Below, in pieces: positions 1 through 23,315 of a stretch of DNA of 36,183 bases. Positions within the stretch are counted from its first letter, which is position 1; the number at the start of each line of letters is the position of its first letter. The stretch covers positions 1 to 36,183 of the forward strand of contig CAIOAT010000034.1 in NCBI GenBank assembly GCA_903856085.1, written 5' to 3'. Under the pieces are notes generated by a model. It was not told where the DNA came from and searched no databases. It was given only the letters and a program-made list of their open reading frames with translations. The stretch comes from Candidatus Omnitrophota bacterium (GTDB lineage: Bacteria; Omnitrophota; Omnitrophia; Omnitrophales; Aquincolibacteriaceae). The position numbers were made by a program, and so were the translations under genes.

Positions 1-234
1 GGGAGATTATTTACGGGAACTCACGGGAACGGAATATTAGGCGCAACCGGAAATGCCACAGGCGCTGAAGTTTCCACTTGGCCCGGCACCAGCGCGCTTG
101 GCTCGGGCTTTCGCGGCGGTAATTGGACCTATGGTACATCGTACGCCCGTGTCTCGGACCGTAACATCGCGGCTAACACGGATTACGTTCGGAACATCGG
201 TAACGGCGGCCGTTGTGCGAGGACTTCCCCTTAG
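1..234 (+). CDS. DGR target protein, C-type-lectin/FGE-like C-terminus (5' end outside window)
   Basis: This frame is open from base 1 to a TAG at 232-234 and gives 77 residues; the start lies upstream of the window. The visible end carries GSGFRGGNW, then a segment rich in S, R and N, and closes with GGRCARTSP. That pattern (GxRGGxW ... R ... GxRCAR) is typical of the formylglycine-generating-enzyme-like C-type lectin fold used by diversity-generating retroelement (DGR) targets. Bases 98-226 form the variable repeat. Eleven residues differ from what the template at 889-1017 would encode: nine template Asn codons became T, Y, Y, I, D, Y, V, I and G, one Asp became Gly and one Lys became Arg. 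The protein is probably a ligand-binding or surface protein with a diversified binding face. Its N-terminal domains and export signal cannot be seen. Confidence 0.85.
   Translation, partial: GRLFTGTHGNGILGATGNATGAEVSTWPGTSALGSGFRGGNWTYGTSYARVSDRNIAANTDYVRNIGNGGRCARTSP
98..226 (+). repeat. DGR variable repeat (VR)
   Basis: This 129-bp stretch aligns without gaps to 889-1017 (offset 791). The two differ at 13 positions (128, 130, 134, 142, 167, 181, 184, 187, 188, 197, 199, 200, 221), and the template base is A at all 13. Replacements are six G, six T and one C. The first 23 bases of the template have no A and are unchanged here. The 3' part (201-220) is identical in both copies and would serve as the initiation of mutagenic homology; the first non-adenine mismatch is C227 versus T1018, just past it. 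The repeat ends five codons before the target stop codon, the usual VR position. Confidence 0.95.
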
Positions 235-322: not shown

Positions 323-661
323 ATGCAAAAAATAACTCCGGTTGTCGAAAAGCATTACAGGTTGATTCTCTGGATACTTCCCAAAATTGCGAATTTTCCG
401 AAAGACCAGCGGTTTCTGCTGGCGGACCGGATCGAGAGAATTTTGCTTGACATCCTGGAGATGTTGATCGAAGCGGTGTATTCGAAAAATAAAAGGGAGG
501 TCTTGATCAAGGTTAATCTAAAACTGGATGTTTTGCGTTTCATGATGAGGATTGCCAAAGATATGAAGTATGTCAGTTTGCCGGGTTATGATTATTTTTG
601 TCAGCTGACCCTCGAGATCGGCAAAATGGTCGGGGGATGGCTTAAGGCATCTGTTCTTTAA
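323..661 (+). CDS. avd: Avd-like DGR accessory variability determinant (four-helix bundle)
   Basis: This 112-residue basic protein is predicted to be almost entirely alpha-helical, with repeated patterns of hydrophobic and Lys/Arg residues (for example KHYRLILWILPKIANFPK near the start). It fits the Avd / 23S-intervening-sequence four-helix-bundle family in size, composition and position between VR and TR. In known DGRs, Avd forms a barrel-shaped pentamer that binds the reverse transcriptase and the template RNA and is needed for mutagenic homing. A purine-rich GAAGGA at 304-309 lies upstream of the ATG, with AT-rich spacing. The family call rests on sequence pattern plus the DGR context. A stand-alone four-helix-bundle protein of the same superfamily is the main alternative. 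Confidence 0.85.
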   Translation: MQKITPVVEKHYRLILWILPKIANFPKDQRFLLADRIERILLDILEMLIEAVYSKNKREVLIKVNLKLDVLRFMMRIAKDMKYVSLPGYDYFCQLTLEIGKMVGGWLKASVL

Positions 662-675
662 AATAAAAACCAGGA

Positions 676-699
676 TCCTGACGTTTACGGATGTCAGGA
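676..699 (+). other. Stem-loop in the avd-TR interval
   Basis: TCCTGAC (676-682) pairs perfectly with GTCAGGA (693-699) across a 10-base loop, 14 bases after the avd stop codon. The left arm overlaps a 10-bp palindrome, CAGGATCCTG (671-680). In a DGR this interval is transcribed as the 5' part of the template RNA, so the hairpin could be part of its fold. No T-run follows it. Confidence 0.5.
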
Positions 700-742
700 G
701 CGGCCACATGAAAGGGGAAGTCCAGACGCTATTCCTCGATCT

Positions 743-790
743 GTCATTGCGAAGGGGTTTCTTCGGTTTCTTCGACATCTTTGCAATAAC
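743..790 (+). other. Long imperfect stem-loop upstream of TR
   Basis: GTCATTGCGAAG (743-754) pairs with CTTTGCAATAAC (779-790) in 11 of 12 positions, counting one G-T pair. The 24-base interior contains two copies of TTTCTTCG (758-765 and 768-775). No gene of normal size occupies 662-1115. The segment holds this hairpin, the one at 676-699, TR, and the inverted repeat before the reverse transcriptase. A structural role in the template RNA is inferred. An unrelated dispersed hairpin element is the alternative. Confidence 0.45.
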
Positions 791-888
791 GGATGGAAAA
801 AGAGGCGGATATCTGGCGGAGGTTTTTTAACACGAAGCTTCTGCTTGATATGGCGATTAAAGCAAGGTGTAGCGTCGTAAAAGGGTTG

Positions 889-1017
889 TTGGCTCGGGCT
901 TTCGCGGCGGTAATTGGAACAATGATACATCGAACGCCCGTGTCTCGGACCGTAACAACGCGGCTAACACGAATAACAATCGGAACAACAATAACGGCGG
1001 CCGTTGTGCGAAGACTT
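889..1017 (+). repeat. DGR template repeat (TR), non-coding
   Basis: TR is the unchanging copy of the repeat at 98-226. It contains 36 adenines by hand count, concentrated in AAC/AAT triplets in the target frame (912-1000), the arrangement that yields the widest range of residues after A-to-N change. Thirteen of the 36 are altered in VR. TR lies between avd and the reverse transcriptase on the same strand, the classic order. Open frames across it are incidental. Confidence 0.95.
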
Positions 1018-1031
1018 TCCCGGATTGAGTG

Positions 1032-1096
1032 AGCGGGTGAACGGGTAAATGGGTTAACGGGTTGAGCCCGCACACTCGCTAACGCGTTCACCCGCT
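1032..1096 (+). repeat. Inverted-repeat element between TR and reverse transcriptase (element A, copy 1)
   Basis: AGCGGGTGAACG (1032-1043) and CGTTCACCCGCT (1085-1096) are a perfect 12-bp inverted repeat enclosing 41 bases. A smaller hairpin sits inside (CGGG 1058-1061 with CCCG 1067-1070). The left 29 bases match 21802-21830 at 27 positions, so this is one copy of a dispersed element. Here it begins 14 bases after TR and ends 19 bases before the reverse transcriptase ATG. In studied DGRs, RNA just 3' of TR helps prime cDNA synthesis, so it may have been taken up for that role. Confidence 0.75.
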
Positions 1097-1115
1097 AACC
1101 GATAGGTGAAAATCG

Positions 1116-2183
1116 ATGAAAAAGATCAGCAACGTTTATCATGAGATTATTTCAAAAGAGAACCTTTATCGCTCGGCGCATCTGGCCGCCCGTGGCAGGC
1201 GCTATGGGGACGCGGTGGCTGATTTTAACTTTAACCTTGAAGAAGAGATGGGGACATTGCATAGAGAATTGGCGGATAAAACCTATCGCCACGGAAAATA
1301 TCGTATGTTTACCATCTACGACCCCAAACAACGGAATATCGCTGCCGCGCCTTTCAGGGACAGGGTCGTGCATCACGCCGTGCATGATGTGATCGAACCG
1401 TTCATTGATAAAACTTTTATCCACGATTCCTATGCTTGCCGGAAAGGCAAAGGGACGCATATCGCCGTGGACAGGACGCAAAGCTTCCTGCGAGCCAACC
1501 GGTTTTGCTTGCACGGCGACGTGAAAAAGTATTTCCCTTCCATCGACCACGGCGTGCTTAAAGAAATACTCGCGAAAAGAACGACAGATAAGGATCTCTT
1601 ATGGCTTACCAACGGGATCATTGATTCGGCAAGGCAAGTCATGGATACTTCGGACCCTTGCGATGGCGGCGGCAAGGGTTTACCCATCGGCAGTCTGACG
1701 AGCCAGTTCTTCGCGAACCTTTATCTGAATGAACTGGATTATTTTGTTAAATTTGATTTGCGCCGGCGTTATTATCTCCGCTACATGGACGATTTTCTTC
1801 TTTTTGGTAATGACAAAGAGGATTTGTTCGAGGTTAAAATCAAGATAAGGGATTTCTTGAAAAACAAACTTGCTCTCGATCTCCACGAAGGCAAGTCGCA
1901 GGTTTATAAGACCCGAAACGGGATCAAATTCCTGGGGTTCAGGATCTATGAAGATCATAGAAGGCTCGCGTCGGATAATGTGAAGCGGTTCAAAAAGCGG
2001 CTTAAAAGGTTCGCTTATGACGCTGAAAACGGCAGGATCGACGCGGAAAAAATAAGCGATTCCGTCCGTTGCTGGGCGGCGCATAGTCGGTATGCCGATA
2101 CAGGTGGCTTGCGACACAGGACAAGTGACGGTTTAGCGCATAGTCGACTGAAGAGCCTGCTTGTGAATGTCTTGTTGAATTGA
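1116..2183 (+). CDS. DGR-type reverse transcriptase
   Basis: This 355-residue protein has the ordered motifs of group-II-intron-like/DGR reverse transcriptases: HGDVKKYFPSIDH at about residues 133-145 (first catalytic Asp), LPIGSLTSQFFANLYL at about 190-205, the catalytic YMDD box in LRYMDDFLLFG at about 222-232, and IKFLGFRIY at about 270-278. The SQ within the IGSLTSQ segment is characteristic of DGR enzymes. It lacks maturase and endonuclease domains, and its length is normal for the family. It would copy the TR RNA while misincorporating opposite adenines, together with Avd. AGGTGA (1104-1109) sits six bases before the ATG. The C-terminal end contains an in-frame direct repeat of GCGCATAGTCG (2079-2089 and 2136-2146). 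An ordinary retron or intron RT is unlikely given the TR/VR pair. Confidence 0.95.
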   Translation: MKKISNVYHEIISKENLYRSAHLAARGRRYGDAVADFNFNLEEEMGTLHRELADKTYRHGKYRMFTIYDPKQRNIAAAPFRDRVVHHAVHDVIEPFIDKTFIHDSYACRKGKGTHIAVDRTQSFLRANRFCLHGDVKKYFPSIDHGVLKEILAKRTTDKDLLWLTNGIIDSARQVMDTSDPCDGGGKGLPIGSLTSQFFANLYLNELDYFVKFDLRRRYYLRYMDDFLLFGNDKEDLFEVKIKIRDFLKNKLALDLHEGKSQVYKTRNGIKFLGFRIYEDHRRLASDNVKRFKKRLKRFAYDAENGRIDAEKISDSVRCWAAHSRYADTGGLRHRTSDGLAHSRLKSLLVNVLLN

Positions 2184-2338: not shown

Positions 2339-5300
2339 ATGAAACGAATGAAGTTCGCGATTCTAACGATGGCGCTTGTGATGACAGCGCTCGCGGTGCC
2401 AGCGTACGCCGAATACACAGGAGGTATCGCGTCCGGGTGGTCTTACATGGAGGCGTCGCGGTCGGTAAAGCTGATAAGAGCAGGCATGACGATATCGGCA
2501 ATATCGAGGTCGACGAATGTCGTCTCGGTCACGTTGACGGGCGCCTACCCGAACAGCAACCTGAAAACAGGACAGAGGATTGTGATATCGGGCGTGACGG
2601 GTTTTAACGGTCTTTTTACGATCACCGCCGTGACCGACCAGCTTCATTTTAGCTACGCCGAAACCGCGGCGAATGCGTCCGGGACAACGGATGGCAGTTC
2701 GATCGCGGGAGGCGACTATACTTCGCTTGTGTCTTGGGAAGCCGCGGAGGGAGGGGATCTTGTCTCGATCGGTAAGGTTGCTATAGCCGAATGTTACAAT
2801 GATTGGGCGGGCGGGCTTGCCGAGAATCTCATCATCATGGGAAACACGACCGATGCCTATCACTATCTTGAGGTTACCGTTCCGGCTAGCGAGCGCAACA
2901 ACGGAACCCCGGGAACCGGCTTTCAAATCTCCGGATATCTTACCCTGGCAGATAACGAAAACGTGCACCTCACGTATCTCGAGGTGACTGGCATGACCTC
3001 CGTAACAGCCGGGACGATAACAGAACAGGGCAGTTTATATACGGGCGGCCTCTCGGTCGCGCCCGCCGCGACCATCAACATCGTAGGCGCTTCTTCGCAA
3101 TATCGCGGCGGACAAAATGCCGGCTGGACTTACGCAGAGATGTCCGATACTGCGCTGGACTCGGTAGCGATCGATGCTATGAAGATCATCCGAGCAGGCC
3201 AGACGATATCGGCGATATCGAGGTCGGCGAACGTCGTCTCGGTCACGTTGGCGGCTGCCTACCCGAACAACAACCTGAAAGTCGGGCAGAAGATAACGAT
3301 CAACACGGGTTCGGGCGGGACCGCGTCCTTTAACGGGACGTTTGTCATCGCTTCAGTAACCAGCCAAGCCCTCTTCAGCTACGCACAGACTGGTGTCGGT
3401 GTGGCGGGGACCCTCGGGACAAGCCCTTGGGCCGGGGGAGATTATGCCACTTTGAGTGGTTGGGAGACCGCCGAAGGAGGCGACCTCGTCTCGGGGAACA
3501 GGCGTGCGACCGCCGAATGTTACAACGATTGGGGAGCGGGCGGCCTCTCCGACAATCTCACTCTCTCCGGCAATACGACTGACGCGACGCGTTATTTAAG
3601 GATCTCCGTGCCGCCAAGCGAACGGCATAACGGGACGACCGGAACGGGTTTTAAACTCGCCGGCACGCTGACTGTCTCAGACAGCGGATACGTAACGGTC
3701 GAATATCTTGAGGTGAGCGGCCTGACCACGATTTCGGCCGGAACGCTTACCGATTTTGGCTCGCTCTATACAGGGGGATTGTCAGCCGCTTCGGGCGTGA
3801 CTCTCAATCTCGGAGGTTCGGGCTTTACCAATTGGGGAACGGTGACTTTGAATGCCGCGTCCACCGTTGTCTATACGGGCCGGATAGATAATTCCCGATC
3901 CACCGTCACCCTGATCAATGCTCCTCACGGAAATATTACGTTGAACTATCCTTACGGGACCTTCAACCTTCCGGCCAATTTTACGATCAACGGAAATCTC
4001 GTCATAAACGCTCTTACCACTTTGGATGTGAGGAGCTTGAACCAGGCCTCCACTTATAACATTGCCTGCGCGGGCAATTGGACGAATAACGGGACATTCA
4101 TCTACTCCATAGGCACGGTCACTTTAACAAGCGGTGGCAACCACGCCCTATCCGGTTCCAATACCTTCTATAAATTAACGTGCGATATTTCCGGCGACAC
4201 CACGGGACGGATGCTCACATTCGCCGCCGGCACGACGCAGACGATCGTCTCGGGCGGGACGCTCACGCTGAAAGGCGGCTCAGGCAAGGTCCTGACCATT
4301 GCTTCGAGCGCTTCGAGTGCCGCTTACCTGATCGTAAACAGCGCAGCAACCGCAGTCATGGGCTACTTGAGCGTAAGCTATAACGACGCTTCGGGCGGGA
4401 AGTTGTTAGCTCCCACGAATTCAAGCAGCGGCGACGGTGGAAATAATGTGAACTGGAACTTTGACGCCGCAAACACGACCCGCTGGTTAGGCGGCACTTC
4501 GACGGCCTGGGCCACAGCTGCGAATTGGTCGGCCGGTAGTCCGGATGCTACAAAAACCGCGGTCATCGACGGAGCTGGAACCTATCAGCCCACAGTGTCG
4601 AGTCCTGCCAGCGCCAAAGCTGTTTACGTGAGCGGTTCGTCCACGCTTACACTCAACGCTCTTTTGACCACGGCAGGCGTCGTGCAGTTAAATACCGGCG
4701 CCACGATCGACGCCTCGGGCGCCAGCGGGGCCGTCACGGTCGGCGGCAATTACACTCAAAGCGGCGGCACCTTCACCGGGGGAGCTACGAATTGCACGTT
4801 TAACGGAAATTTTACAAAGGCAGGCGGCACGTTTACGGCTCCGACCACGGCGACATTCACGGGCGCGGCATCTGCTCTGACAGCCAACGGCCAGACATTT
4901 AACGCCATGACCGTCAATAAGAATGACGGAGCAATCTTCACCGTAGTCAGCGGCACCACGATTACGGCGAACGGGGCGCTGACTCTTACGGACGGTTCGC
5001 TCAATACCGGCACCGTGAATGCCAAAGGCGCGGTTTCGGTCGCTTCCACGTTTGACGGCGGCACGGCAAATTTAATTTTAAATAGCGCAGGCGCGCAGAC
5101 AGTGACGCTTGGCGCGGGCAGCGCGTTGCCCAACGTCACGTTTAATAATTCCAATCTCAGCGTGACGCCGGCCGGAAGTTTATCCTTTTACAGTCTCACA
5201 TTGACCTCAGGGACTTATTACTCCAGCTCTTATACGACCACGATCACCAGCGGGGATTTTACCGTGAACGGCGGAACGTTTGACGAAGGCACAGGCACGG

Positions 5301-8300
5301 TCGCGTTCACCGGTGCCGGTGCCAATCAGACCCTTACCGCCGATGCAGAGGTATTTAATAATCTTAGCTCCAACAAGCCGGGTTATGCTCTGATCATCGC
5401 CGGCGGTACAAGCGTTACCACCCACGGGACATTGACGCTAACGGACGGTTTACTCAATACTGGCACCGTCAATGCCCAAGGTCCAGTCTCGGTCGTTTCC
5501 ACGTTTGACGGCGGCACGGCGGCGATTACACTTTCCGGTACTGCTGACCAAGCCATCACTTTGGGCATGGCGACGCCTTTTACCGGTGCTCTTACGGTCA
5601 ATAAAGATTCCGGCACAGTCACGAGTGCCGGCGCATGGACCATCCCCGGTGCGGTGGCCATCACAAAGGGCGTGTTGTCGCTTGGGGGTGATACCACATT
5701 CCAGGATAACGTCACCATCGCCTCCGGAGGGACGCTTTCCGCGACGACGGGCGGGAAGACGATCCGGTTCAAGCAAGTCAAAACACTGACTGTCAATTCC
5801 GGCGGCACGCTCAATCTCTACGGCGCTGCAGGAAGTCTCCTCACGCTCACCAATAACACCGGCGATGGCGTGAACAAATGGAAGATCAACGCAGCGTCTG
5901 GCAGTGTTTACAATATCGATTATGTCAGCGCTTTTTATTCGGACGCTTCGACCTATCCGAAAATTTATACCAGCGCGCAGTCGACGGTAGACGCGAGCTG
6001 TGTCAACTGGGACAGGACTAATTCCACCTGGACATGGGTCGGCGGCGCGTCCGGTGCCACTACGGACTGGAATACGCCTACGAACTGGAGCCCTCAATCG
6101 GTGCCCGGAGCCGGTGCGGATGTGAGCATCCCGCTCACGACCTATAAGCCGGTGCTTTCCGTTTCGACCTCCATAAAATCGCTCACGATTGATGGTGCAG
6201 GGGTGAATCTTACCACGAACGCGGGGGCCAACCTCACGGTGACCGGGAACGTGACTCTGACAAACGGAGGCGAGCTGAAACTCAATTCCACGACATTCAC
6301 TTGCGGCGGGAACGCGAACTTCAGCGCGGGGACGCTCACCGAAGACACGTCCACGATCGTGATGAACTCAGGTGGTGCGGCGACATTGACGCTGGACGGC
6401 GACGCGACGGTGAATAATTTTACGTGGAGCGGCGCGGGCACTCTGAATTTCGGCGCGGCGAATGTGACGGTGACCGGCGTCTGGACGCAATCGTCAGGCA
6501 CGGTGAATGCACCGAGCGGGACGCTGACTTTTACCACGAGTAACTTTACGCGCTCCGGCGGCGTGTTCAACGCCGGTACCGGGACGGTCGCGTTTACCGG
6601 AAGCGGCGCCGGCCAGTCCATCACGGCCGATACGCAGGTTTTTAATCACCTTCGCTCCGACAAGAATGGTTACAGTCTGACCGTTACCGGCGGCACCAGC
6701 ATTGAAGTGGACGGGACATTGACACTGACCGATGGAACGCTTGATACCGGTACAGTGAACGCGAAAGGCACGGTCGCGGCTGCTTCCACATTTGATGGAG
6801 GAACAGCAGCCCTGATTTTGAATGGCTCAGGCGCGCAAACCTTTACGCTTGCCGCGGGAAGCGCACTGCCCAACGTCACGTTCAATAACGCCAATCTTAA
6901 TGTGACGCCGGCCGGAAGTTTGTCCTTCTACGGGCTTACGTTGACTGCGGGCACTTATCACTGTAGTTCTTACACAACGACGATCACGGGCGGGGATTTT
7001 AACGTGAACGGCGGCACGTTTGACGAGGGTACAGGCACGGTCGCGTTTACCGGGGCCGGTGCCAATCAGACGATCACCGCTGATGCTGAGGTATTTAATA
7101 ACCTTAGCTCCAACAAACCGGGTTATGCCCTGATCGTTGCCGGCGGCACCAGCATTATCACCAACGGGACCTTGATGTTGACGGATGGTTCTCTCAATAC
7201 CGGATTGCTCTACGCCAAAGGGGCGGTCTCGGTCGCTTCCACGTTTGATGGCGGCACGGCGGCGATCACTCTTTCCGGTACGGGCGCCCAGGCCATCACG
7301 CTCGGAGGCGGCACATTCCCGAACGGCGCTTTCACGATCAACAAGACCTCCGGCACTGCTACCTCCAGTGGCGCGTGGACGATCCCCGGGACGACGACGG
7401 TGACGCAAGGTGCTCTTTCGACCGGCGCGGCGACGACTTTTACCGGCGCGGTCTCGGTTGCATCGGTGGGAACGCTTTCCGCCTTAAGCGATGGTACTTT
7501 CAGCAGTACCGTGGCAGTTGCTTCCGGCGGCTCTTTCTCCGTTGCGGGCAATGCTATTTTTGGAGATATGGTCAACTCAGCGGGCGTATCTTCGATCCAG
7601 GGCACTGCCGCTTTCAATAATGCCGTGACTTGCAGCGGCGCGCTTTCGGTTACCGGGGATGCGACCTTCAGCAATACGGTCGGCGGCGCGGGTGCGCTCT
7701 CGTTTGCCGGCAACACTACGTTTAACGATGCCGTGACGATTGCGTCGGGTGGTATCTTTTCGCACACCACCGGCGGCAAGACGCTTAAATTCAAGGAAAA
7801 TAAAGCTGTGAATATCCAATCTGGCGCGACTCTTACATTGAGGGGCGCGTCGACCAGCAATTTGCTGACCGTGGATCGCACCGGCAGTTCGGGACAGTGG
7901 AGTTTGACGATGAACGGCGGCTACGAGTTTTCTTATCTCAACGTAAAAAACTCACTTGCCTCAACCGATGTCTATGCCACAAGCTCCACGGACGGATTGA
8001 ATAATAACGTTAAGTGGCATTTCGTGGACCTGGTGACCTGGAATGGAAGCAGTTCCACGGACTGGGGGACCAAGGCCAACTGGACTCCTGCGGTTGTTCC
8101 CGGCGCGGGGACGGATGTTGTGATCCCGAGTACCGGGACCAAGCCCACGCTTGGAGTGGCGGCGACGATCAAGTCGCTCAACCTTTCTCAAGCGGGAAGC
8201 CAGCTCACTTTGGGTGCGAACCTTACGGTGCTCGGCGATATCACGAACGTTGGAACACTTTTACCGCAGTTGTATACGCTCACCTGCGGTGGAAATTTTG

Positions 8301-11300
8301 ATACCGGAAGCGGCATGCTCACAGCCTCCACATCGACCTTGATCATGAACGCCGCAAGCGGCACAAAGACGGTAACGCTTGGGGCTAGCGGCCTGAACCA
8401 TCTTACCTTGAACGGCGCGGCCGCGTTTAATTTCGGAACGGCGGACGCCACGCTCTCCGGCAATTTTACGATTTCAAGCGGCACCGGCACGGTGACTGCT
8501 CCGAGTGGGACGATTACATTCACCGGCAATAGTTCCACGGTGGACGTCCAGACTTCATTCGCAGTGAACGGCCTTACCATAAACAAGACCTCGGGCCAGA
8601 CGCTCACGATCGCCTCGGGCGATACGCTGACGGTGGCCGGAACTCTCACTCTTACCGACGGCGCGGTTGGGACGGGTACGTTGGACGCAAAGGGCGCGGT
8701 TTCCGTGAGCGCGGGATTTGACGGCGGGAACGCGGCTCTCCAACTTTCGAGTATTACCGCCGACCAGACGTTGAATGTCGCTTCTAGCGGCGTGGTGCCG
8801 ACGGGAAATATGACGATCAATAAGAGCGGCAAGGCCGCGACGATCAGCGGTTCATGTGCTCTGAATAATGTGACCTTAAGTGCGGGCACGCTTTCGTTCG
8901 GTGCCGGATCGACCTACACATTCACTGCGGGGAAGACACTGAATGTCGGCGTCGGGACAATCTGCAATTTCACGGGCACGAATGCTTCCAACAGGGTGAC
9001 GCTGCGCAGTTCCGTGACGGATTCACCCTGGAATTTGACCAAGACCGGCACGGTGAACGCCCTTTATGTGGATGTCAAGGATTCCAACGCCTCCGCCGTG
9101 GTGATCGCCAATAACTCCGTCAATTCCGGAGGAAATACCAACTGGTCGATTCTGGATCTAACGAACTGGGATCTCGATCTCAACGCCGGCACGATGACTT
9201 TCGTCTTCGGTTATCCGGTCGATGCGGGAACGCTAGCCGCCAACCTGAACGTTACTGTGCAAAATTCGAATGGGTCGCATAGTTATGTCCTGACCGGCGG
9301 CGCCACCGCCTCCCCGAACGGCACGACGATCGTGATGAATCTGAATGCCACGGACCTGAACGCGATCAAGGCGGATGAGAATATCGGGAAATCGGCAGCG
9401 AACAGTTATATCACGATCACAAGCAGTCTGATCCAGAGCACAGCCGGCAACAATGTCAGCGAGATCCTGACGCCGAAGCAGGTTCGGAATTACACGGCGG
9501 ACGCGACGGCCGCGGCGTTCGCGAGCTGGGTGCTCGATATGAATAATCATACCCTGACGCTCAATTTCAGCGAAAGCGTGAAGGCGTCCAGTTGGACGCC
9601 CTCTGCGGTGACGTTGCAAAACACCGCTTCCGCGCCGACGAAAACTTATGTCCTAACCGCGGGCTCCACCACGGCCAGCGCCAACGGAACGCAGCTTGTG
9701 GTCACGCTTTCTCCGACGGATTTTAACGCACTTGTGGATTTCACCGGCGGCGGCCTTTGCGCGTTGCAGGGGAACAGTTATATCACGATGACTTCTTCGG
9801 CGGTCACGGACATGGCCCCGACTCCGAACAGTTTGACGGCGGTGACGACGGGGATCCAAGCCGCCTACACTTCGAACACTGCTTCTCCCACCGAGTTTTA
9901 TGTCACAACTTCGGGGGCATCGTCGACTTCCGTCACTGCGGGGACGGCCAAGCAGATCACTTTGAAGGCGTACGACAGTTCCGGCTATCGCGTGCCGTAT
10001 TACAGCGGAGACAAAACACTGACCTTTTCCGGTGCCGCGAATTCTCCGAAGGGCGACGTTCCTTCCGGAAGGAACAAGACCGGCGCGGACATCAATTTCG
10101 GGTCGAATACGGTCATTAATTTTTCGAACGGTCAGGCGTCGAGTTTTCTGGTGCTTTATTGCAAGGCGGTTTCGGGATCTCCCGCCCTGGTCAAAGCGGC
10201 GGAAGGGACGAGCGTCATAACGCAGGATGCGCGAGGCCTGAGTGTCACGGTGGATCCGCAGGTCAAGAATAACCTGGCATTCTCCCAGGAGCCCTCTTCC
10301 ACAGGCATCATCAACGTCGCTTTGGCGACGCAGCCGAAAGTGATCGTGAGAGATATGTTCTGGAACAAGGTGGATACGGACGGCGACAGCGTTACGATCT
10401 ACGCGTATGATCCCGCGAACGACCAGCCCGTATCGAACATGACGCTGACGGTCACGACAAACCCCGTCACGGCGACTGCGGGAACGGCGACCTTCGCTGG
10501 CGTAAAATTCGATACTCCGACGACCATCTATTTGTTTGCGGACTGCAACGGCGTTACGTCGGCTTCCTCCGGTCATATTACATTCAGCAATTCCGCGACG
10601 ACGACCGTGGACGCGGCGACGGCGGCTGTTCCCGATTTCGGTCTCATTCCCACGAACGATACTTTTGGCACGAGGTTCGATGTGCTGAAGTTCAAGATCA
10701 CGGATAAAGGCGGCGATACGACCGATACGAAGATCGACCGGATCAAGATTGCTTTCGGCGGGACCGGCGGAAACGCAAGCGGCGACATCGCGTGGGCGGG
10801 GTTGTATAAGGGTGCCACGCAACTCGCGACGGCGACGGGAGCGGCGATCACCAACTCCCAAATCACATTCGGCACGATGGGCGCGGTCATGGACACCATT
10901 ACCGATACGGGGTCAGGCTCTTCCACCGAATACACGGTCTCTATCTATATGAAAAACAGCAAGCTCGCCGCCACGGAAAATGATACCTATACGTTCACGA
11001 CCAATGAGACGCTTGTGGATGTGCACGCGACCGGTTCTTCGCTGATGAAGACGGATAGTTCCGGCGCCATCGCGACGGTGACCGGGACGATCGTGGTCAA
11101 CCAAACGCATTGGGAGATCGTCGACGCTTCCTCCGGGAGTTCGTCCTTGAGCGTGACGGCGGGCGCGGACAAGGAGCTTATCCTGCGCGCCGTGGACGCA
11201 AACAAGAACGTGGATAAGGATTACGGCGATCCCGTAAACGGAAATTTTATGAGCCTGGTCTTTAACGGTCTTTCGACGATCGGCATCAATCACCCTACCA

Positions 11301-14300
11301 TTGAAGGTACCTATTTCGGGAATGCAACGATCATAAAATTTTATGGCGGCACTACGGTCAATCCGTCTACCGGTCTGTCCACCGGCGCGACCCTGAAAGC
11401 CTTCAAGCGGGAGACGGCCAATATATCGATCTCTTCTCCGGTCAATCCGGGAACCGGGTTGCCTTACCTTATGCACACGGTTTCGGCGGATGTGGCCGCG
11501 GGAAGCCCGAGCGTGCTTTCGAAGACAAGCGGTGATGCTCAAGTGGGCAAGACCTCCAAGGCATTGCCGAATCCGATCCTTGCAACGGTGACGGACACTT
11601 ACGGCAACACGGTTTCTGGTCAGACGATCGCGTTTGCGGTTTCGGGGCCGGGTTCGCCTTCCGTCAATCCGACGAGCGCTTTAACGGATTCGAACGGCCA
11701 GGCAGCGACCATTCTTACTTTGGGTTCCGCCGATGGCTCTAACACGACAGTGACCGCCACACCGACAGGTTACGGCACACCGCAGAATTTTACGGCCACG
11801 GGCCGCACGCCGCGAGGCATCTATATCGTCAGCGGAGACGGGCAGTCGAAGATTATCAATCTTAATCTGGATAACCCGCTCGTGTGCAAGCTGGTCGATG
11901 TTGCGAGCGGAGACGGAAACCCGATTCCGAATGAGACGGTGGCGTTCAGTTTCTCGTCGGTTCCTTCGGGCGCGCTGAATCAATCGGTCGCGCCCTCAAC
12001 AGCCGTGACGAATTCAGGAGGTCAGGTTTCGACGACTTCGGTTCAAATGGGCACTGTGACCGGCAATTACCTCGTTCGGGCCACTTACGGCGCACTCACG
12101 AAAGATTTTACTGCGACCGCGACGTCACCCGGAGCGACGAAGATCGTACTGACCGGTCCGGGGTCAGTGACCGCGGGCTCGCCTTCGACGGCATTTACGA
12201 TCACCGCGAGAGACAATTTTGACAACGCGGTCGCGGTCGCTCAAAACACGGTCCTGGGACTGACCACGTCGCCGGCGAGTACGGGCGCGTTCTACAGCGA
12301 CAGCGGATGCACGATTCCCCTGAATCCCATACAGGTGACCATTGCAAACGGCGCAAGCACAGCCCAGTTTTTCTATAAAAATACTGCGGCGGGGAATGTG
12401 ACCTTGATCGCGACGCGGACAAGCGGGCAGTCTTTGCCGGATGGCGCCGTGAGCCAGCAGGCGATCACGATCATTCCCGCCAACATCAACTATTTAATTG
12501 TCGGAGCGGCAGATATGAGCACGGTGACTGTCGGCGTCGCGAGGACCTTTACGGTCACCGCTTACGACCAATACAATAATCCGTCGACGAACGCGGGCAC
12601 TGTCAACGTGACGTTCGATACGGCAAGTTCATCGCCTTCGGGACAGGCGCCGACCGTGAATAATATCGCCTTTGGAAGCTCGACGCCTCTTGCTTTCGGT
12701 TCAGGCAACGGTCAAGTAACAGCCTCGTTAAAACTCTACAAGGTCGAAAGCGTTGTAATCAAAGCGACCGCCGGTTCTGCCGTAACCTCCGACGCGAACG
12801 ACCTGCACTTGACGGTGAAACACGGGACCGCGGACCACGTGAAATTGGACGGTAATATCACTTCGCCCCAAGCGGCGGGCACCCAATTCAATTTTAACGC
12901 GAATTTGATCGTCGTCGATCCTTACGGCAATCTTTGCGATACCACCAACGGTGGCACGGCCTATTCCGGAGCTAAAGACATTACATGGTCCCTGAGTGGC
13001 ACGGCGAATTCGCCGGACGGTCTGTCCCTCGACGCGTATGATACGCCCGTCACTTTTACGAACGGTAGTTCTTCGCCGACGGTGCTTAAAGCGACTCTTT
13101 ACCGCGCGCAGAACACGAAGATCCTTATGGATATCTCGACACTGCCCAAGACTGTCGCGAACGAACAGTCCAACACGATCACAGTTACGGCCGGAGCGAT
13201 CAACAAACTTAATTTTGACGTGCAGCCTCCTTTGAACGGAACCACGGCACAACTCTTGTCGCCTCAGCCGCGGGTGGCGGCGGGTGATCAGTACGGCAAC
13301 CCTTGCAGTGCGGCTTCCGGTAGCATCCACTTAGAGGCCGTCAGGGACGTAAGCGATAATCCCGCGAACGGGACATTAAGCGGCACGGCGACGCAGGCGT
13401 TGAGTAACGGGGTGGCGACTTTTAACGATATCAGTTATCCATATCCAGAGCAGATCCTATTGAAGGCGACGGTTGCGGGCGTAAGCCTCTCGCCGATCTA
13501 CTCGACGCCGACGACATTTGCCACCACGACCGACCTCGGCGTGGCGGCCTTATCAGTGGGGGAGAAGACCGCGGCCAACATCACCGGCCTGGTTTCTTCC
13601 GTTGCGAACGCCGCCGTGAGCAAGGTGCCGGTCTACGGATTTAAAATAACCGATGCAGGTTTGGATGGCCGCGACGGCATGATCCAGAAGATCGTGGTCC
13701 ATCGCGGGGCGGGTGATACGGCGGGCGATTGGACGGCCTATATCTCGGATGCCTGGATCACGGACGGCACGACGGTTCGGCTCGGAACGGTCGGCGCGAG
13801 CGCGATCACGTTCGGAGACGGGACAAGCAATATCTTTACGGTTCCCAACAACAACACTCTGGCTCCGAAAACCTACGTCCTGAGCGTGGTCCTGAAAAAT
13901 CCGGTTCCCACAGGTGCGGACGGCAAGGTGCTGGGATTCACCCAGACCGCCGGTGCCGACATTACGGTGGATGCGGCGCTGGGTTCGACCTTTGCCGCGA
14001 CTTCCGCGATCACCGGAACTTCAACGGTCACGGTCGTTGCAACCGATCTTAAGATCACAGGCAGTGCAAATTCCATGGCCTCGGGGGATAGCGTGACCCT
14101 TACGATCAAGGCAATCGACGCGAACGGCAATATCGATAAGGAATACACGGGAGAGAAAGGGCTTATTTTCAGCGGCGCGAATGTTTCCGCAAATAACACC
14201 AGCCCCACATGCACGGATACCGTCGGATCGTCAAGGTCCTTCGGCCCGACCACAGGGGATTCCACGCTTGTCGCTTTTGCGAACGGCGTGAGTAGTTCGT

Positions 14301-16651
14301 CTAACACACTCCAGCTTGTCATGAAACTTTACAAAGCCGAAGTCGCCACGATCTCCGTGTCGGATACGGTGCTCAGTGCTTCGACTGCAAGCAAGTTCGC
14401 GATCACGGTGAGCGGCGGCGCGGCGTCCCAGCTTTTCTGGGACACACAGCCGGTTTCGATGGTCGCGGCCAACGCCCCGTGGAAGCCTTTCGTTTTGAGC
14501 GTTGCGGACGCTTACGGCAACACGTCCTCCAGTACGTCGGACATCACCGTCACGCCGTCCGGTAACGGCGTGCATACCGGTGCGGCAGCCATGGCGACTG
14601 TCACGGCGTCCGCAGGTCTGGCGACGTTCAATAATTTCTCCGTATGGTGCGATTCCTATCCCGGCGCGGTGACGCTGAACGCGACCGCGCAGGGCGTTAC
14701 AGCCTCAGGACCGTCGAGCGCGGTTCAGGTGGATCAGACCTATGCGATCGAATTGAACGTCAAGGACACGGTGACCGCGACGCATCTTGCGGGAGTGTCG
14801 CTCAAGGTGCAACAAACGGTCAACGGGGTTACGACCACGGTGTATGGCCCTGTCACGGGCAACAGTCCGTTCAACCTGAGCCTGCCTTACGGGACTTACA
14901 CATTCATCATGACGCTTGATAAATACATGGATTACACCACCGAAGAGGTCGTTGGCGCAACGGCGGACGGTGGCGACGGCACCTACGACAACGTGATTCA
15001 CTGGACCCGATACATGACGACTCTGGCCGAGGCGACGGCCGACTACCGGGTGATGCCGAGTTTTGTTTATGATGAGGATAATGATGATCTTTACATACGC
15101 TTGTGGCTGGAGCGGCGCGGCAAGCTCATTTTGAACACAGGCACGAATATTCTCGGCCGGGCGCTGGTGAGTGTGTATGACGATGTCACTCAGGCATGGC
15201 TTCCCACCATCGAACTTACCCCGCCACTGTCTTCGGATACGGTCAACGGGACCTACGTGCGTAAGTTATCGGGCATCGTGACGAGCGTGGCAAACGGTTT
15301 CGGCAAGACCCTGACGTCGGGCAAGACGTATTTTGCCAAGTGCCAGATCTATTACGGCGGTCCTTTGGGAGATAGCACTCTTTACGAAGCAGGCGCCACA
15401 TTCACAGTGACCAACACGCAGAAAGTCGGAAACGAGATCATCAGCAAATTGGGAGTTCCAACCGGCCAGACCCTGGGTGGAATGATGACGTCTGTGCAAA
15501 CGGCGGTGGCCGGCGTCAGCACCAAGGTTGACACCACAACCGCCAAGGTGGATGCCATTGGGACGCAGGTGGCTACTGTGAATGCGAATGTTGCCAGTAC
15601 GGGTACCAAGATCGATACGGTCCAGGGTACGGTGGGCGCTATTCAAACCGATGTTAGCACGACTTTACCGGCCAAGGTCCTGGCGAATATGGAAAAGGGA
15701 GTGATGAGTGAAATCCTTACGCGTTATACGGTTCTGAGGGAGGATGACGAGGTCAAGATAAGATACCGTACTGCGAGCGGCCTTAAACCTGCATTGACTA
15801 TCTTCAAGCCGGATGGGACCATTTTGGCGGATTATAACGGCGTCAAAATGACGGAGATCAACAAAACGGGTATCTATGAATACTCGGTGACGGCGAAAGC
15901 TTCATGGGGAATCGGGGATTTTACGGTCCAATGTTCCGAGTCTACCAAGGGTTCTACGGATAGCATGGTTTTGACAGTGAAGGCGCTTTATACCGCAGGG
16001 GCCGGCGTGCAAGAGTCGATCGACGCTGTGGGAGAAGCCGTGTCCAAGGTGTATGGGCGGCAAGGTTCCATCCAGGATCTTTTGGGAACCTCTGCCGACG
16101 GTCTCAACAAAGGCAGCATCTTTGGGAGGGTGAATGGTTTTAACACAAAGTTGGACGGCTTGAATCTTACTACCGTTTCGACGGACGCGAAGAATGCCCG
16201 GGAGAATGCGGAAAATATTTACAGTGAGATCAAGAATCTAACGGGCAGCATGGGAGATGTGAAAACTCAGTCCGTGGCTCTCAAACAGTTATTAAGTCAA
16301 CTCGACGAGATGCGCGCCAATCTTGCCAAGGCATCCAAGAGCCTTGCCGCCGTGGGCGCCTCTTCCGGTGGCGGAGGGGAAGTGACGGTCTCAGGTGGCA
16401 CGACCACGATCGTTAATGGATCGGGAGTGTCGGGAAGCGGACTTAACGCGACGGATGAGAAATCGCTGTCAGCTCTTCTGAAGGACGCGAAGGGATTAAA
16501 GAAATCCGGAGCTTTGGGCGTAACGGAAGTAGAGGCCCGAGATCTTAATAACAAGATCGAGGCGTTGACCGCGCTCGTGAAGGTTCTCGGTCAAATGGTT
16601 CAGAATACGGGCAACAAGCCGATTATCGAAGGCTGGTTCGAGCAAGAGTGA
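2339..16651 (+). CDS. Giant exported beta-rich repeat protein (4,770 aa)
   Basis: The ATG follows a good ribosome-binding site (AAGAAGG, spacing 7). Residues 1-24 are a clear signal peptide ending in PAYA. Two tandem units of about 238 residues follow (roughly 25-500), each holding an ISRSxNVVSVTL...FNGxFxI...FSYAxT beta module. From about 500 to 2270 come parallel-beta, haemagglutinin-like repeats (LTLTDGxLNTGTVxAKG), opened three times by a WxGxxxxW...NW...P module. Next are SbsA-like and invasin/Big-type Ig-like modules (for example ATVTDTYGNTVSGQT). Residues from about 4,360 onward carry a predicted coiled coil rich in V, T and D heptads, a small beta domain and a second helical stretch. 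The composition is rich in T, G, S, A and N. There is no C-terminal membrane helix or sorting motif. It is most likely a cell-surface or released adhesin/filament, possibly exported through the downstream secretion system, but its function is unknown. Confidence 0.85.
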   Translation: MKRMKFAILTMALVMTALAVPAYAEYTGGIASGWSYMEASRSVKLIRAGMTISAISRSTNVVSVTLTGAYPNSNLKTGQRIVISGVTGFNGLFTITAVTDQLHFSYAETAANASGTTDGSSIAGGDYTSLVSWEAAEGGDLVSIGKVAIAECYNDWAGGLAENLIIMGNTTDAYHYLEVTVPASERNNGTPGTGFQISGYLTLADNENVHLTYLEVTGMTSVTAGTITEQGSLYTGGLSVAPAATINIVGASSQYRGGQNAGWTYAEMSDTALDSVAIDAMKIIRAGQTISAISRSANVVSVTLAAAYPNNNLKVGQKITINTGSGGTASFNGTFVIASVTSQALFSYAQTGVGVAGTLGTSPWAGGDYATLSGWETAEGGDLVSGNRRATAECYNDWGAGGLSDNLTLSGNTTDATRYLRISVPPSERHNGTTGTGFKLAGTLTVSDSGYVTVEYLEVSGLTTISAGTLTDFGSLYTGGLSAASGVTLNLGGSGFTNWGTVTLNAASTVVYTGRIDNSRSTVTLINAPHGNITLNYPYGTFNLPANFTINGNLVINALTTLDVRSLNQASTYNIACAGNWTNNGTFIYSIGTVTLTSGGNHALSGSNTFYKLTCDISGDTTGRMLTFAAGTTQTIVSGGTLTLKGGSGKVLTIASSASSAAYLIVNSAATAVMGYLSVSYNDASGGKLLAPTNSSSGDGGNNVNWNFDAANTTRWLGGTSTAWATAANWSAGSPDATKTAVIDGAGTYQPTVSSPASAKAVYVSGSSTLTLNALLTTAGVVQLNTGATIDASGASGAVTVGGNYTQSGGTFTGGATNCTFNGNFTKAGGTFTAPTTATFTGAASALTANGQTFNAMTVNKNDGAIFTVVSGTTITANGALTLTDGSLNTGTVNAKGAVSVASTFDGGTANLILNSAGAQTVTLGAGSALPNVTFNNSNLSVTPAGSLSFYSLTLTSGTYYSSSYTTTITSGDFTVNGGTFDEGTGTVAFTGAGANQTLTADAEVFNNLSSNKPGYALIIAGGTSVTTHGTLTLTDGLLNTGTVNAQGPVSVVSTFDGGTAAITLSGTADQAITLGMATPFTGALTVNKDSGTVTSAGAWTIPGAVAITKGVLSLGGDTTFQDNVTIASGGTLSATTGGKTIRFKQVKTLTVNSGGTLNLYGAAGSLLTLTNNTGDGVNKWKINAASGSVYNIDYVSAFYSDASTYPKIYTSAQSTVDASCVNWDRTNSTWTWVGGASGATTDWNTPTNWSPQSVPGAGADVSIPLTTYKPVLSVSTSIKSLTIDGAGVNLTTNAGANLTVTGNVTLTNGGELKLNSTTFTCGGNANFSAGTLTEDTSTIVMNSGGAATLTLDGDATVNNFTWSGAGTLNFGAANVTVTGVWTQSSGTVNAPSGTLTFTTSNFTRSGGVFNAGTGTVAFTGSGAGQSITADTQVFNHLRSDKNGYSLTVTGGTSIEVDGTLTLTDGTLDTGTVNAKGTVAAASTFDGGTAALILNGSGAQTFTLAAGSALPNVTFNNANLNVTPAGSLSFYGLTLTAGTYHCSSYTTTITGGDFNVNGGTFDEGTGTVAFTGAGANQTITADAEVFNNLSSNKPGYALIVAGGTSIITNGTLMLTDGSLNTGLLYAKGAVSVASTFDGGTAAITLSGTGAQAITLGGGTFPNGAFTINKTSGTATSSGAWTIPGTTTVTQGALSTGAATTFTGAVSVASVGTLSALSDGTFSSTVAVASGGSFSVAGNAIFGDMVNSAGVSSIQGTAAFNNAVTCSGALSVTGDATFSNTVGGAGALSFAGNTTFNDAVTIASGGIFSHTTGGKTLKFKENKAVNIQSGATLTLRGASTSNLLTVDRTGSSGQWSLTMNGGYEFSYLNVKNSLASTDVYATSSTDGLNNNVKWHFVDLVTWNGSSSTDWGTKANWTPAVVPGAGTDVVIPSTGTKPTLGVAATIKSLNLSQAGSQLTLGANLTVLGDITNVGTLLPQLYTLTCGGNFDTGSGMLTASTSTLIMNAASGTKTVTLGASGLNHLTLNGAAAFNFGTADATLSGNFTISSGTGTVTAPSGTITFTGNSSTVDVQTSFAVNGLTINKTSGQTLTIASGDTLTVAGTLTLTDGAVGTGTLDAKGAVSVSAGFDGGNAALQLSSITADQTLNVASSGVVPTGNMTINKSGKAATISGSCALNNVTLSAGTLSFGAGSTYTFTAGKTLNVGVGTICNFTGTNASNRVTLRSSVTDSPWNLTKTGTVNALYVDVKDSNASAVVIANNSVNSGGNTNWSILDLTNWDLDLNAGTMTFVFGYPVDAGTLAANLNVTVQNSNGSHSYVLTGGATASPNGTTIVMNLNATDLNAIKADENIGKSAANSYITITSSLIQSTAGNNVSEILTPKQVRNYTADATAAAFASWVLDMNNHTLTLNFSESVKASSWTPSAVTLQNTASAPTKTYVLTAGSTTASANGTQLVVTLSPTDFNALVDFTGGGLCALQGNSYITMTSSAVTDMAPTPNSLTAVTTGIQAAYTSNTASPTEFYVTTSGASSTSVTAGTAKQITLKAYDSSGYRVPYYSGDKTLTFSGAANSPKGDVPSGRNKTGADINFGSNTVINFSNGQASSFLVLYCKAVSGSPALVKAAEGTSVITQDARGLSVTVDPQVKNNLAFSQEPSSTGIINVALATQPKVIVRDMFWNKVDTDGDSVTIYAYDPANDQPVSNMTLTVTTNPVTATAGTATFAGVKFDTPTTIYLFADCNGVTSASSGHITFSNSATTTVDAATAAVPDFGLIPTNDTFGTRFDVLKFKITDKGGDTTDTKIDRIKIAFGGTGGNASGDIAWAGLYKGATQLATATGAAITNSQITFGTMGAVMDTITDTGSGSSTEYTVSIYMKNSKLAATENDTYTFTTNETLVDVHATGSSLMKTDSSGAIATVTGTIVVNQTHWEIVDASSGSSSLSVTAGADKELILRAVDANKNVDKDYGDPVNGNFMSLVFNGLSTIGINHPTIEGTYFGNATIIKFYGGTTVNPSTGLSTGATLKAFKRETANISISSPVNPGTGLPYLMHTVSADVAAGSPSVLSKTSGDAQVGKTSKALPNPILATVTDTYGNTVSGQTIAFAVSGPGSPSVNPTSALTDSNGQAATILTLGSADGSNTTVTATPTGYGTPQNFTATGRTPRGIYIVSGDGQSKIINLNLDNPLVCKLVDVASGDGNPIPNETVAFSFSSVPSGALNQSVAPSTAVTNSGGQVSTTSVQMGTVTGNYLVRATYGALTKDFTATATSPGATKIVLTGPGSVTAGSPSTAFTITARDNFDNAVAVAQNTVLGLTTSPASTGAFYSDSGCTIPLNPIQVTIANGASTAQFFYKNTAAGNVTLIATRTSGQSLPDGAVSQQAITIIPANINYLIVGAADMSTVTVGVARTFTVTAYDQYNNPSTNAGTVNVTFDTASSSPSGQAPTVNNIAFGSSTPLAFGSGNGQVTASLKLYKVESVVIKATAGSAVTSDANDLHLTVKHGTADHVKLDGNITSPQAAGTQFNFNANLIVVDPYGNLCDTTNGGTAYSGAKDITWSLSGTANSPDGLSLDAYDTPVTFTNGSSSPTVLKATLYRAQNTKILMDISTLPKTVANEQSNTITVTAGAINKLNFDVQPPLNGTTAQLLSPQPRVAAGDQYGNPCSAASGSIHLEAVRDVSDNPANGTLSGTATQALSNGVATFNDISYPYPEQILLKATVAGVSLSPIYSTPTTFATTTDLGVAALSVGEKTAANITGLVSSVANAAVSKVPVYGFKITDAGLDGRDGMIQKIVVHRGAGDTAGDWTAYISDAWITDGTTVRLGTVGASAITFGDGTSNIFTVPNNNTLAPKTYVLSVVLKNPVPTGADGKVLGFTQTAGADITVDAALGSTFAATSAITGTSTVTVVATDLKITGSANSMASGDSVTLTIKAIDANGNIDKEYTGEKGLIFSGANVSANNTSPTCTDTVGSSRSFGPTTGDSTLVAFANGVSSSSNTLQLVMKLYKAEVATISVSDTVLSASTASKFAITVSGGAASQLFWDTQPVSMVAANAPWKPFVLSVADAYGNTSSSTSDITVTPSGNGVHTGAAAMATVTASAGLATFNNFSVWCDSYPGAVTLNATAQGVTASGPSSAVQVDQTYAIELNVKDTVTATHLAGVSLKVQQTVNGVTTTVYGPVTGNSPFNLSLPYGTYTFIMTLDKYMDYTTEEVVGATADGGDGTYDNVIHWTRYMTTLAEATADYRVMPSFVYDEDNDDLYIRLWLERRGKLILNTGTNILGRALVSVYDDVTQAWLPTIELTPPLSSDTVNGTYVRKLSGIVTSVANGFGKTLTSGKTYFAKCQIYYGGPLGDSTLYEAGATFTVTNTQKVGNEIISKLGVPTGQTLGGMMTSVQTAVAGVSTKVDTTTAKVDAIGTQVATVNANVASTGTKIDTVQGTVGAIQTDVSTTLPAKVLANMEKGVMSEILTRYTVLREDDEVKIRYRTASGLKPALTIFKPDGTILADYNGVKMTEINKTGIYEYSVTAKASWGIGDFTVQCSESTKGSTDSMVLTVKALYTAGAGVQESIDAVGEAVSKVYGRQGSIQDLLGTSADGLNKGSIFGRVNGFNTKLDGLNLTTVSTDAKNARENAENIYSEIKNLTGSMGDVKTQSVALKQLLSQLDEMRANLAKASKSLAAVGASSGGGGEVTVSGGTTTIVNGSGVSGSGLNATDEKSLSALLKDAKGLKKSGALGVTEVEARDLNNKIEALTALVKVLGQMVQNTGNKPIIEGWFEQE
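2411..3830 (+). repeat. Tandem duplication of the N-terminal ~238-codon unit
   Basis: Sequence around 2491 (GATATCGGCAATATCGAGGT) recurs with few changes at 3205, an offset of 714 bp or 238 codons. Matching landmarks include AYPN, the FNG/FSYA beta module, AECYNDW, and SLYTGGLS at the end of each unit. The two copies make up the start of the mature giant protein. Confidence 0.7.
4800..7440 (+). repeat. Intragenic duplication with a 1,740-bp period
   Basis: Lines of sequence from about 4800 to 5700 match 6540 to 7440 at an offset of exactly 1,740 bp (580 codons). For example, GGCACGGTCGCGTT at 5296 recurs at 7036, and GTGACGCCGGCCGGAAGTTT at 5162 recurs at 6902. Divergence is mostly synonymous or conservative, so this looks like an older unequal-crossover duplication. 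After about 7440 the second copy carries extra short beta repeats before the two resume similarity (5701 region versus about 7721). Confidence 0.75.
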
Positions 16652-19204: not shown

Positions 19205-19214
19205 ACCCTGAAAA
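19170..19214 (+). repeat. Element B, copy 2, overlapping the atpFH stop codon
   Basis: This is the second copy of the element at 18359-18402, carrying TCAGGGAACAGGAAAATCTG and two CCCTGA motifs. TCAGGG (19170-19175) can pair with CCCTGA (19192-19197 or 19206-19211). It spans the last codons and the stop of the b-delta gene. Confidence 0.7.
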
Positions 19215-19232
19215 TTCTAGAGGTTCATTTGC

Positions 19233-19445
19233 ATGCGTAACGCTTTAATCCTTTTGGTGCTTTTTGCGACCATTCTTGGTCCTTCCCTGGTCATTGCGGC
19301 GATCAGTTATGCTTCGATACACGCGCTGGGCAGGAATCCGTCAGCGGCACCCAAGATATTGATCGCGATGATCGTTTCGCTTGTATTCGCCGAAAGCATT
19401 TCGGTGATCGCCTTGCTGGTATTGTTTCAACTTTTCGCGAAATAA
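19233..19445 (+). CDS. atpE: F-type ATPase c subunit (ring proteolipid), divergent
   Basis: The 70-residue product is a two-helix hairpin. The polar loop is GRNPSAAPK, and the ion-binding carboxylate is Glu54 in VFAESISVIALL. The length is slightly below the usual 75-90. Two departures stand out. The glycine-rich packing motif of helix 1 is replaced by GPSLVIAAISYASIHAL. The Gln needed by Na+-type c subunits (Gln32 of Ilyobacter tartaricus) aligns with Ile, which argues for protons. The gene lies between b-delta and alpha, with a GAGG at about 19219. Confidence 0.85.
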   Translation: MRNALILLVLFATILGPSLVIAAISYASIHALGRNPSAAPKILIAMIVSLVFAESISVIALLVLFQLFAK

Positions 19446-19458
19446 GGATGATGGCACG

Positions 19459-21810: not shown

Positions 21811-21890
21811 ACGGGTTAATGGGTGAACGGATTCATGGGGAAGCGGGTTGGCGGGTTCAACTCGCACGCCCGTACACCCGAGCACTCGCA
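21796..21890 (+). repeat. Inverted-repeat element between atpG and atpD (element A, copy 2)
   Basis: AGCGGGTGAACGGGTTAATG begins at 21802, and 27 of its first 29 bases match 1032-1060. GGGTGAACGGG (21805-21815) can pair with CCCGTACACCC (21869-21879) with one mismatch. The element overlaps the last codons of atpG and fills most of the 98-bp gap, the longest inside the ATPase cluster, ending just before the atpD ribosome-binding site. Confidence 0.75.
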
Positions 21891-21899
21891 AACCAGTGA

Positions 21900-23315
<1,416 letters not shown>

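Follow-up and report, generated by a model that had tools for sequence, protein, structure and literature searches.

The first kilobases of this contig raise the question of which RNA structures beside the TR of a DGR belong to its template RNA, and in what order they stand along the chain. The window, by which we mean the whole stretch of 36,183 nucleotides analyzed, starts inside a DGR target gene that is cut by the contig start and continues with avd, TR and the gene for the reverse transcriptase (RT). The initial annotation had proposed strong hairpins on both sides of TR, by analogy with the Bordetella system. In our analysis, the best explanation of the whole, to which we assign a probability of about 0.78, is that the DGR is active and that its template RNA carries the parts of the usual DGR RNA in circularly permuted order. 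This reading draws on the order of the parts, the covariation of two helices, two complementarities, the activity seen in VR and a single RT clade, all of which are read from sequence.

The window element is a DGR with avd, TR and RT, as had been claimed, and it has been recently active. TR and VR differ at TR adenines, an Avd is present, and the RT is of the DGR type, grouping in a tree with the BPP-1 bRT and other DGR RTs. Over 2.3 kb, 20 sites distinguish the window from L003, another assembly of its species. Sixteen of these lie in VR, where 16/16 face TR adenines, and TR remained invariant while VR varied, which argues for recent activity. Both assemblies share the few differences between VR and TR that lie at or beyond TR position 1012. 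About 55 nt past VR lies a small G+C hairpin, CCCGCC-gat-GGCGGG (287-301); a hairpin downstream of VR is described as an aid to homing in BPP-1 (PMC3240598). Directly after the RT follows an ORF of 4770 aa (2339-16651), relatives of which are found downstream of the RT in L004, L005, L006 and L007 (best pieces 42-50% identical); its first 1400 residues have no match in Pfam.

Table 1. Features of the DGR cassette, in coordinates of the window.
Feature	Position	Strand	Remarks
VR, 3' end of target gene	98..230	+	A-specific mismatches relative to TR; 16 strain differences at TR adenines
IMH-like VR 3' end GGACTTCCCCTT	221..232	+	12/12 complementary to linker 712-723
avd (accessory variability determinant)	323..661	+	Pfam PF22296 bAvd, E 2.2e-20
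CCAG, module start	670..673	+	C, C and G invariant in 12/12; follows TR 3' end in canonical DGRs
Hairpin P1 (676-685/690-699)	676..699	+	change on both sides in 6/10 pairs; 96.7% of cells paired
Linker AAGGGGAAGTCC	712..723	+	putative pairing with TR 3' end 1013-1021 and VR 221-232
A724, presumed priming adenine	724..724	+	invariant in 12/12; directly 5' of strand y
Strand y of long-range helix P2	725..736	+	change on both sides in 7/8 scored pairs; 91.7% of cells paired
Variable hairpin P2a (second stem-loop of the initial annotation)	743..790	+	hairpin in relatives at this place, sequence not conserved
Hairpin P3	808..851	+	from folds of window and relatives; positional counterpart of the Rfam RT-14 terminal hairpin, homology putative
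Strand x of P2, directly 5' of TR	865..876	+	covariation; own-versus-foreign pairing
TR, 36 adenines in 133 nt	889..1021	+	identical in second strain L003
IMH*-like TR 3' end GACTTTCCC	1013..1021	+	putative pairing with linker 714-722
3' hairpin, strong fold	1029..1099	+	not a conserved DGR part; imperfect copy elsewhere on the contig
DGR reverse transcriptase	1116..2183	+	PF00078, E 1.3e-20; within all-permuted clade of 13 RTs

The RNA module between avd and TR

All three hairpins of the initial annotation were found where it had placed them, and the perfect 12-bp inverted repeat (1032-1043/1085-1096) lies within an imperfect one of 33 nt (1029-1061/1067-1099). Folded as RNA, the region 662-1115 is more stable than its dinucleotide shuffles (z -4.2, 0/100 as stable). 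Taken singly and compared with 200 such shuffles each, the 5' hairpin (10 bp, loop UACG) reaches z -2.3 (5/200 as stable), the long hairpin in which 743-790 sits z -2.8 (4/200) and the 3' hairpin z -5.5 to -5.9 (0/200); TR itself (890-1020) stands at z +0.9 against dinucleotide shuffles. By folding energy alone only the 3' hairpin is exceptional, whereas comparison with relatives inverts the ranking, the 5' hairpin being conserved and the 3' hairpin not. Two helices had been overlooked, namely the long-range helix 725-736/865-876 (P2) and the helix 714-722/1013-1021, which joins a linker to the TR end. When 664-1024 was folded without constraints, P1 and 714-722/1013-1021 were present in the MFE as well as the centroid structure, and P2 in the centroid only.

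In the closest loci, the interval from avd to TR holds a common module that consists of CCAG, hairpin P1, a linker ending in GTCCAG, and strand y. The partner of y is strand x, which immediately precedes TR in these loci, and the stretch separating the two strands contains two hairpins whose sequences vary. Covariation was evaluated in an alignment of 12 loci (A2), in which the pieces were joined and the middle was left out. For P1 and P2 together, 13/18 pairs carry changes on both sides, and 94.4% of the cells are paired, compared with 35-54% in slid versions of the structure. Four of five covariation measures were reached by 0/500 shuffles, and the measure of further pair types by 17/500. 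When corrected covariation was ranked over all 3570 column pairs, the top 5 were all structure pairs and 8/18 structure pairs fell within the top 50; 10/18 rank below 50, several of them because they hardly vary. Enforcing P2 on the 5' region costs nothing relative to the free fold in 7/12 loci, and the free fold is better by 1.6-4.1 kcal/mol in 5/12. Scans for x and y on single loci are often unremarkable, 8/60 shuffles being as good as the window.

Judged by this comparison, the 5' hairpin is part of a conserved RNA module in the avd-TR interval, while the hairpin at 743-790 is conserved in position only. The proposal that flanking hairpins are parts of the DGR thus stands for 676-699, is reduced to position for 743-790, the sequence of which is not conserved across the relatives in which P1 and P2 covary, and fails for the 3' hairpin. 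More generally, the RNA beside TR is structured, as the initial annotation had it, and it is conserved and covarying; close homologues retain P1, and the nearest RT relative (L238) lacks the 3' hairpin. Searches of the genome gave no large family for either variable hairpin, and the window has no match to any known Rfam RNA family.

Order of the module relative to TR

Searches with the RT yielded 77 loci from genome contigs and 68 from viral contigs. A covariance model built from 12 permuted loci only (R1) was run on the fetched RT loci and matched, outside its own type and at E up to 0.3, L047, L011, L018, L065, L193 (twice), L023, L084, L086, L087 and L101. The match begins 7-50 nt after the called TR end in L047, L011, L018, L084, L086, L087 and L101 (L084 and L086 being near copies); in L065 it lies 3' of a TR-like stretch seen by eye, in L193 it marks a module without a trusted TR, and in L023 it is unrelated. 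Matches just past TR ends suggest that the same module lies 3' of TR in other DGRs, and hairpin P1 is also found there in canonical DGRs. R1 gave no match on the BPP-1 spacer (best 5 bits), so that homology to BPP-1 rests on the shared layout and on intermediates. The model comparison is one-way, from the permuted R1 to canonical loci, the canonical modules being misaligned by MAFFT.

These matches bear on a rival idea, in which the 5' module would be a cis-regulatory or avd-mRNA element in its own right, serving for example in attenuation or processing, and would resemble a DGR spacer by chance. Its location in the intergenic gap between avd and RT and its several stable hairpins would suit such an element. 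However, the module has pairing partners in x, next to TR, and in the TR 3' end, it covaries, an invariant A adjoins y, and R1 finds modules beside TR in other DGRs; we consider a separate regulatory element very unlikely.

In canonical loci y pairs with x across TR, as do AGGTTGTTTGATC and GATCAAACAACCT in L047. This pairing was evaluated by an own-versus-foreign test, in which the own x of each locus was scored against the x of all other loci. With y sought 3' of TR, own-x pairing over 81 distinct non-permuted loci reached z 11.7 (0/20000 permutations), compared with z 1.2 when y was sought 5' of x. For 16 permuted loci the values are z 5.7 with y 5' of x (0/20000) and z 0.19 with y 3' of TR (8449/20000), the window thus showing no structured module directly 3' of TR of the kind that marks a canonical DGR RNA. 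At the level of single non-permuted loci, the own x ranks in the best 5% for 29/81, with 4 expected (BPP-1 rank 0.18); y starts 50-60 nt past TR in 19 of the 29. The pairing tests cover loci with a called TR and additionally L239, in which TR was placed by its core sequence; L034, L040 and L073 (TR calls taken as spurious) and L008 (TR interrupted) were set aside. L003 was left out of the counts as belonging to the same species, and near-identical loci were removed before the 81-locus test and the 34-locus test described below. The canonical label was given by eye to L017, L018, L082 and BPP-1 in the tree, and to L017, L082 and BPP-1 in the canonical linker tests.

The usual order, as read from these comparisons, is x-TR-module, the module consisting of CCAG, P1, linker, priming adenine, y and two hairpins; the order in the window is module-x-TR. 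Drawn as a circle, the two are one molecule that has been opened at different places. Three helices are retained through the rotation, namely P1, P2 (x with y) and the one between linker and TR 3' end, only the order along the chain being changed. The Bordetella-like arrangement of the initial annotation therefore has to be given up, since the module lies 3' of TR in Bordetella and 5' of TR in the window.

That the rearranged order is an artefact of assembly or binning seems extremely remote. Most of the loci do come from metagenome assemblies, and an N-run whose flank is duplicated occurs in L193, a locus of another type, but the same order occurs in two assemblies of the window's species, in NZ_CP019384.1 (L007) and in 15 further loci (L008 with a weak model match, E 0.071).

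Within the Omnitrophota sample of 383 genomes (the phylum of the genome of L004), 13 genomes have an RT match at E 1e-75 or better. Of 57 further genomes, ranging from the genus of the window to its phylum, one has a match at 1e-30, with 41% identity and an RT outside the permuted clade. R1 matches 16/383 genomes of the sample at E 4e-4 or better, and 12 more have weaker matches. Loci from 15 of those 16 genomes were checked, the complete genome NZ_CP019384.1 (L007) among them, and each has the order avd, module, TR; the sixteenth genome (G371, locus L236), in which no RT or Avd was found, is unclassed. A pattern scan of viral contigs returned 4 stretches, none with a DGR RT, an Avd or a TR.

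In a tree of 76 RTs, from which L240 was left out because its RT is split between frames, the 13 permuted rows, a clade of Omnitrophota RTs, form one side of one branch with support 99/94 and no canonical row inside. The canonical order is spread over the rest of the tree, which suggests that the permuted order is probably derived and arose once. A tandem copy followed by partial loss would yield it. The duplicated stretch of L193 was considered as a tandem intermediate and rejected, since it spans an N-run; this N-run lies between duplicated flanks (L193:1132-1231), next to a canonical-looking module, and is probably a scaffolding artefact.

Several permuted loci show peculiarities of their own. 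In L008 (760-1065) TR is interrupted by a stretch that has the inverted ends GGTCTCCGACCCTC / GAGGGTCGTTGACC and whose ORF by eye resembles a small GIY-YIG protein. The 6.2-kb contig of L237 (G062:C66) carries avd, module, TR and VR with no RT match, and L234 has only short RT pieces; the RNA of these two loci may be served in trans or be decaying. The RT of L240 (2824-3898, reverse strand coordinates) matched as two pieces in different frames, owing either to decay or to a sequencing error. Riboswitches of the c-di-GMP-I class lie upstream of the DGR in L004 (3028-3105, about 280 nt before the target gene) and in L005 (3214-3291).

As to the host, the window carries an ATP-synthase operon with a fused b-delta subunit (18413-23315), of which the genome has a second copy. 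The beta subunit is 82% identical to that of G086 in the Omnitrophota sample, at most 63% to those of the five same-genus genomes searched and 49% to its own second copy. These identities suggest that the contig may not belong to the bin, and that it may have been misbinned or laterally acquired.

The hairpin between TR and the RT gene

If the hairpins of the window mirrored the Bordetella arrangement, with structures on both sides of TR, the 3' hairpin would be the spacer that binds RT-Avd and supplies the primer. A strong hairpin is indeed present 3' of TR. When the stretch between TR and RT was compared with mononucleotide shuffles in 17 cassettes including the window, a strong fold was found in 6, namely the window, L004, L005, L009, L242 and L202 (z -3.7 to -5.6); it is weaker in L008 (z -2.4) and not clearly beyond shuffles in the 10 others (z -1.5 to 2.0). 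In L202, L235 and L237 the stretch folded was set at 110 nt from the TR end. Cassettes having such a hairpin show no relation in its sequence, and L238, the nearest relative by RT, has none clearly beyond shuffles. Moreover, TR reaches to a few nt from RT in L010 and in L234 (RT fragmentary), there is no x/y pairing 3' of TR, and the canonical module is found 5'. A binding spacer in the form of the 3' hairpin was rejected on its strength in only 6/17 cassettes and its unrelated sequences, and we regard a mirror of the Bordetella layout as highly improbable.

The 3' hairpin of the window has an imperfect copy at about 21794-21890, between atpG and atpD, with matches in 21794-21833 at E 2.5e-6 and 5.6e-5. 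Half of its array, with the second arm absent, is present on contig C1 of the same genome, and a search for further copies in the genome gave no large family. The 3' hairpin of L242 we take, from its letters, to have the look of a dispersed repeat. In the window, the 3' hairpin is best read as an intergenic element, and it would be dispensable for the mechanism proposed below. It might instead be functional as a 3' end block, a terminator or a nuclease shield that offsets the loss of a structured 3' spacer. Hairpins of unrelated sequence recurring at the same place in 6/17 cassettes, with one more weaker, speak for such a role, but 10/17 have no hairpin clearly beyond shuffles and that of the window has its imperfect copy elsewhere on the contig; we therefore think it rather doubtful.

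Linker, priming and comparison with known systems

The linker of the window can form 9 bp with the TR 3' end, one of them G-U, and is complementary to VR at 12/12 positions. In 15 permuted loci, own linkers exceed foreign ones at z 5.4 for the TR end and z 6.4 for the VR end (0/20000 each). In 34 canonical loci, with the linker segment anchored just before y, the corresponding values are z 4.6 (TR, 1/20000) and z 6.1 (VR, 0/20000), and control segments shifted by 16 or 20 nt gave z -1.4 to 1.3. An earlier and looser canonical test, before anchoring at y, had given z 1.8 (TR end) and z 3.7 (VR end). In BPP-1, TAGGTGGTCA forms 10 pairs (one G-U) with TGACCACCTG of VR and 7 (one G-U) with TR. The VR score exceeds the TR score in 10/15 permuted loci (4 reverse) and in 21/34 canonical loci (12 reverse), so that the preference for VR is modest. 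At the level of sequence, the linker that precedes the presumed priming adenine is thus complementary, whichever the order, to the TR 3' end and, on average, more so to the VR 3' end (IMH).

In BPP-1, the spacer 3' of TR folds and recruits bRT-Avd, and an internal spacer adenine primes cDNA at the TR 3' end (PMC12875486). The same paper describes the entry of cDNA into VR as not understood, and a trailing RNA of conserved structure is mentioned elsewhere (PMC8867640). At position 56 the BPP-1 spacer has an A, which by our scoring is either the first base of y or adjacent to it, and to which A724 would correspond in the window. Work by Handa and colleagues from 2018 reportedly identified A56 as the BPP-1 priming adenine, with a joint that is most likely 2'-5'.

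By analogy with Bordetella, RT-Avd would bind the module of the window and the linker would hold the TR 3' end. A724, about 290 nt 5' of the TR 3' end at which copying would start, is then the candidate primer of cDNA synthesis, which would proceed from an internal hydroxyl as in retrons. RNA linker and cDNA would be joined in a single strand with complementarity to VR, in which the linker is the part that reads the IMH. We offer tentatively, at somewhat less than even odds, the proposal that one DGR lineage runs on a circularly permuted RNA in which an upstream branch adenine primes cDNA in a retron-like manner, and that in DGRs generally the adjoining linker is an RNA guide that pairs with the target IMH and is continuous with the cDNA, making target choice RNA-guided. 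The role of the IMH in entry into VR is part of the same poorly understood step, and the complementarity of linker and IMH offers a simple hypothesis for both target choice and direction. The permuted order fits priming from an internal hydroxyl more easily than priming from nicked RNA, which must run into TR. As a natural permutation, it would show which RNA contacts matter and which chain connections do not. A literature search whose scope took in few subscription papers found no paper on permuted DGR RNA or on pairing between spacer and IMH.

BPP-1 shares with the window the avd-TR-RT cassette, the TR/VR repeats, hairpin P1, a linker that runs up to the presumed primer A, and complementarity of this linker to the VR 3' end. 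It also has a candidate y to partner the x next to TR, a pairing that is not significant when BPP-1 is taken by itself. Its module lies 3' of TR (L233 2055-2187), where the Rfam family RF03022 (Phage_DGR) matches directly after TR, while that of the window lies 5' of x and TR. A second family, RF02921 (RT-14), has matches immediately 3' of TR in L083 and L084, comprising P1, two hairpins and y as an unpaired strand. The family shares with the window P1, linker, single-stranded y, P2a and P3 in the same order; it differs in that the module is 3' of TR in its matches and that the Rfam model is without P2, because x falls outside the model. Neither RF03022 nor RF02921 has a match above the curated cut-off in the window or in the 14 other permuted sources searched. 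Since the Rfam DGR families match only 3/22 of the non-permuted sources searched, this says little about the permuted ones. The permuted modules point to DGR RNAs missed by current Rfam models.

The loci L011 (Saganbacteria), L047, L012 and L017 (Neomarinimicrobiota) share with the window GTCCAG before y and the x/y helices, formed in L047 by the strands given above. They differ in having the module 3' of TR, and TR downstream of RT. Retrons (msr-msd) would share with the window, if A724 primes, a branch nucleotide 5' of the template in the RNA; for retrons, 2'-OH priming at a guanosine is described (PMC8867640). The window differs from them in its DGR-type RT, its Avd and its target gene, and in that the presumed priming base is an A and not a G.
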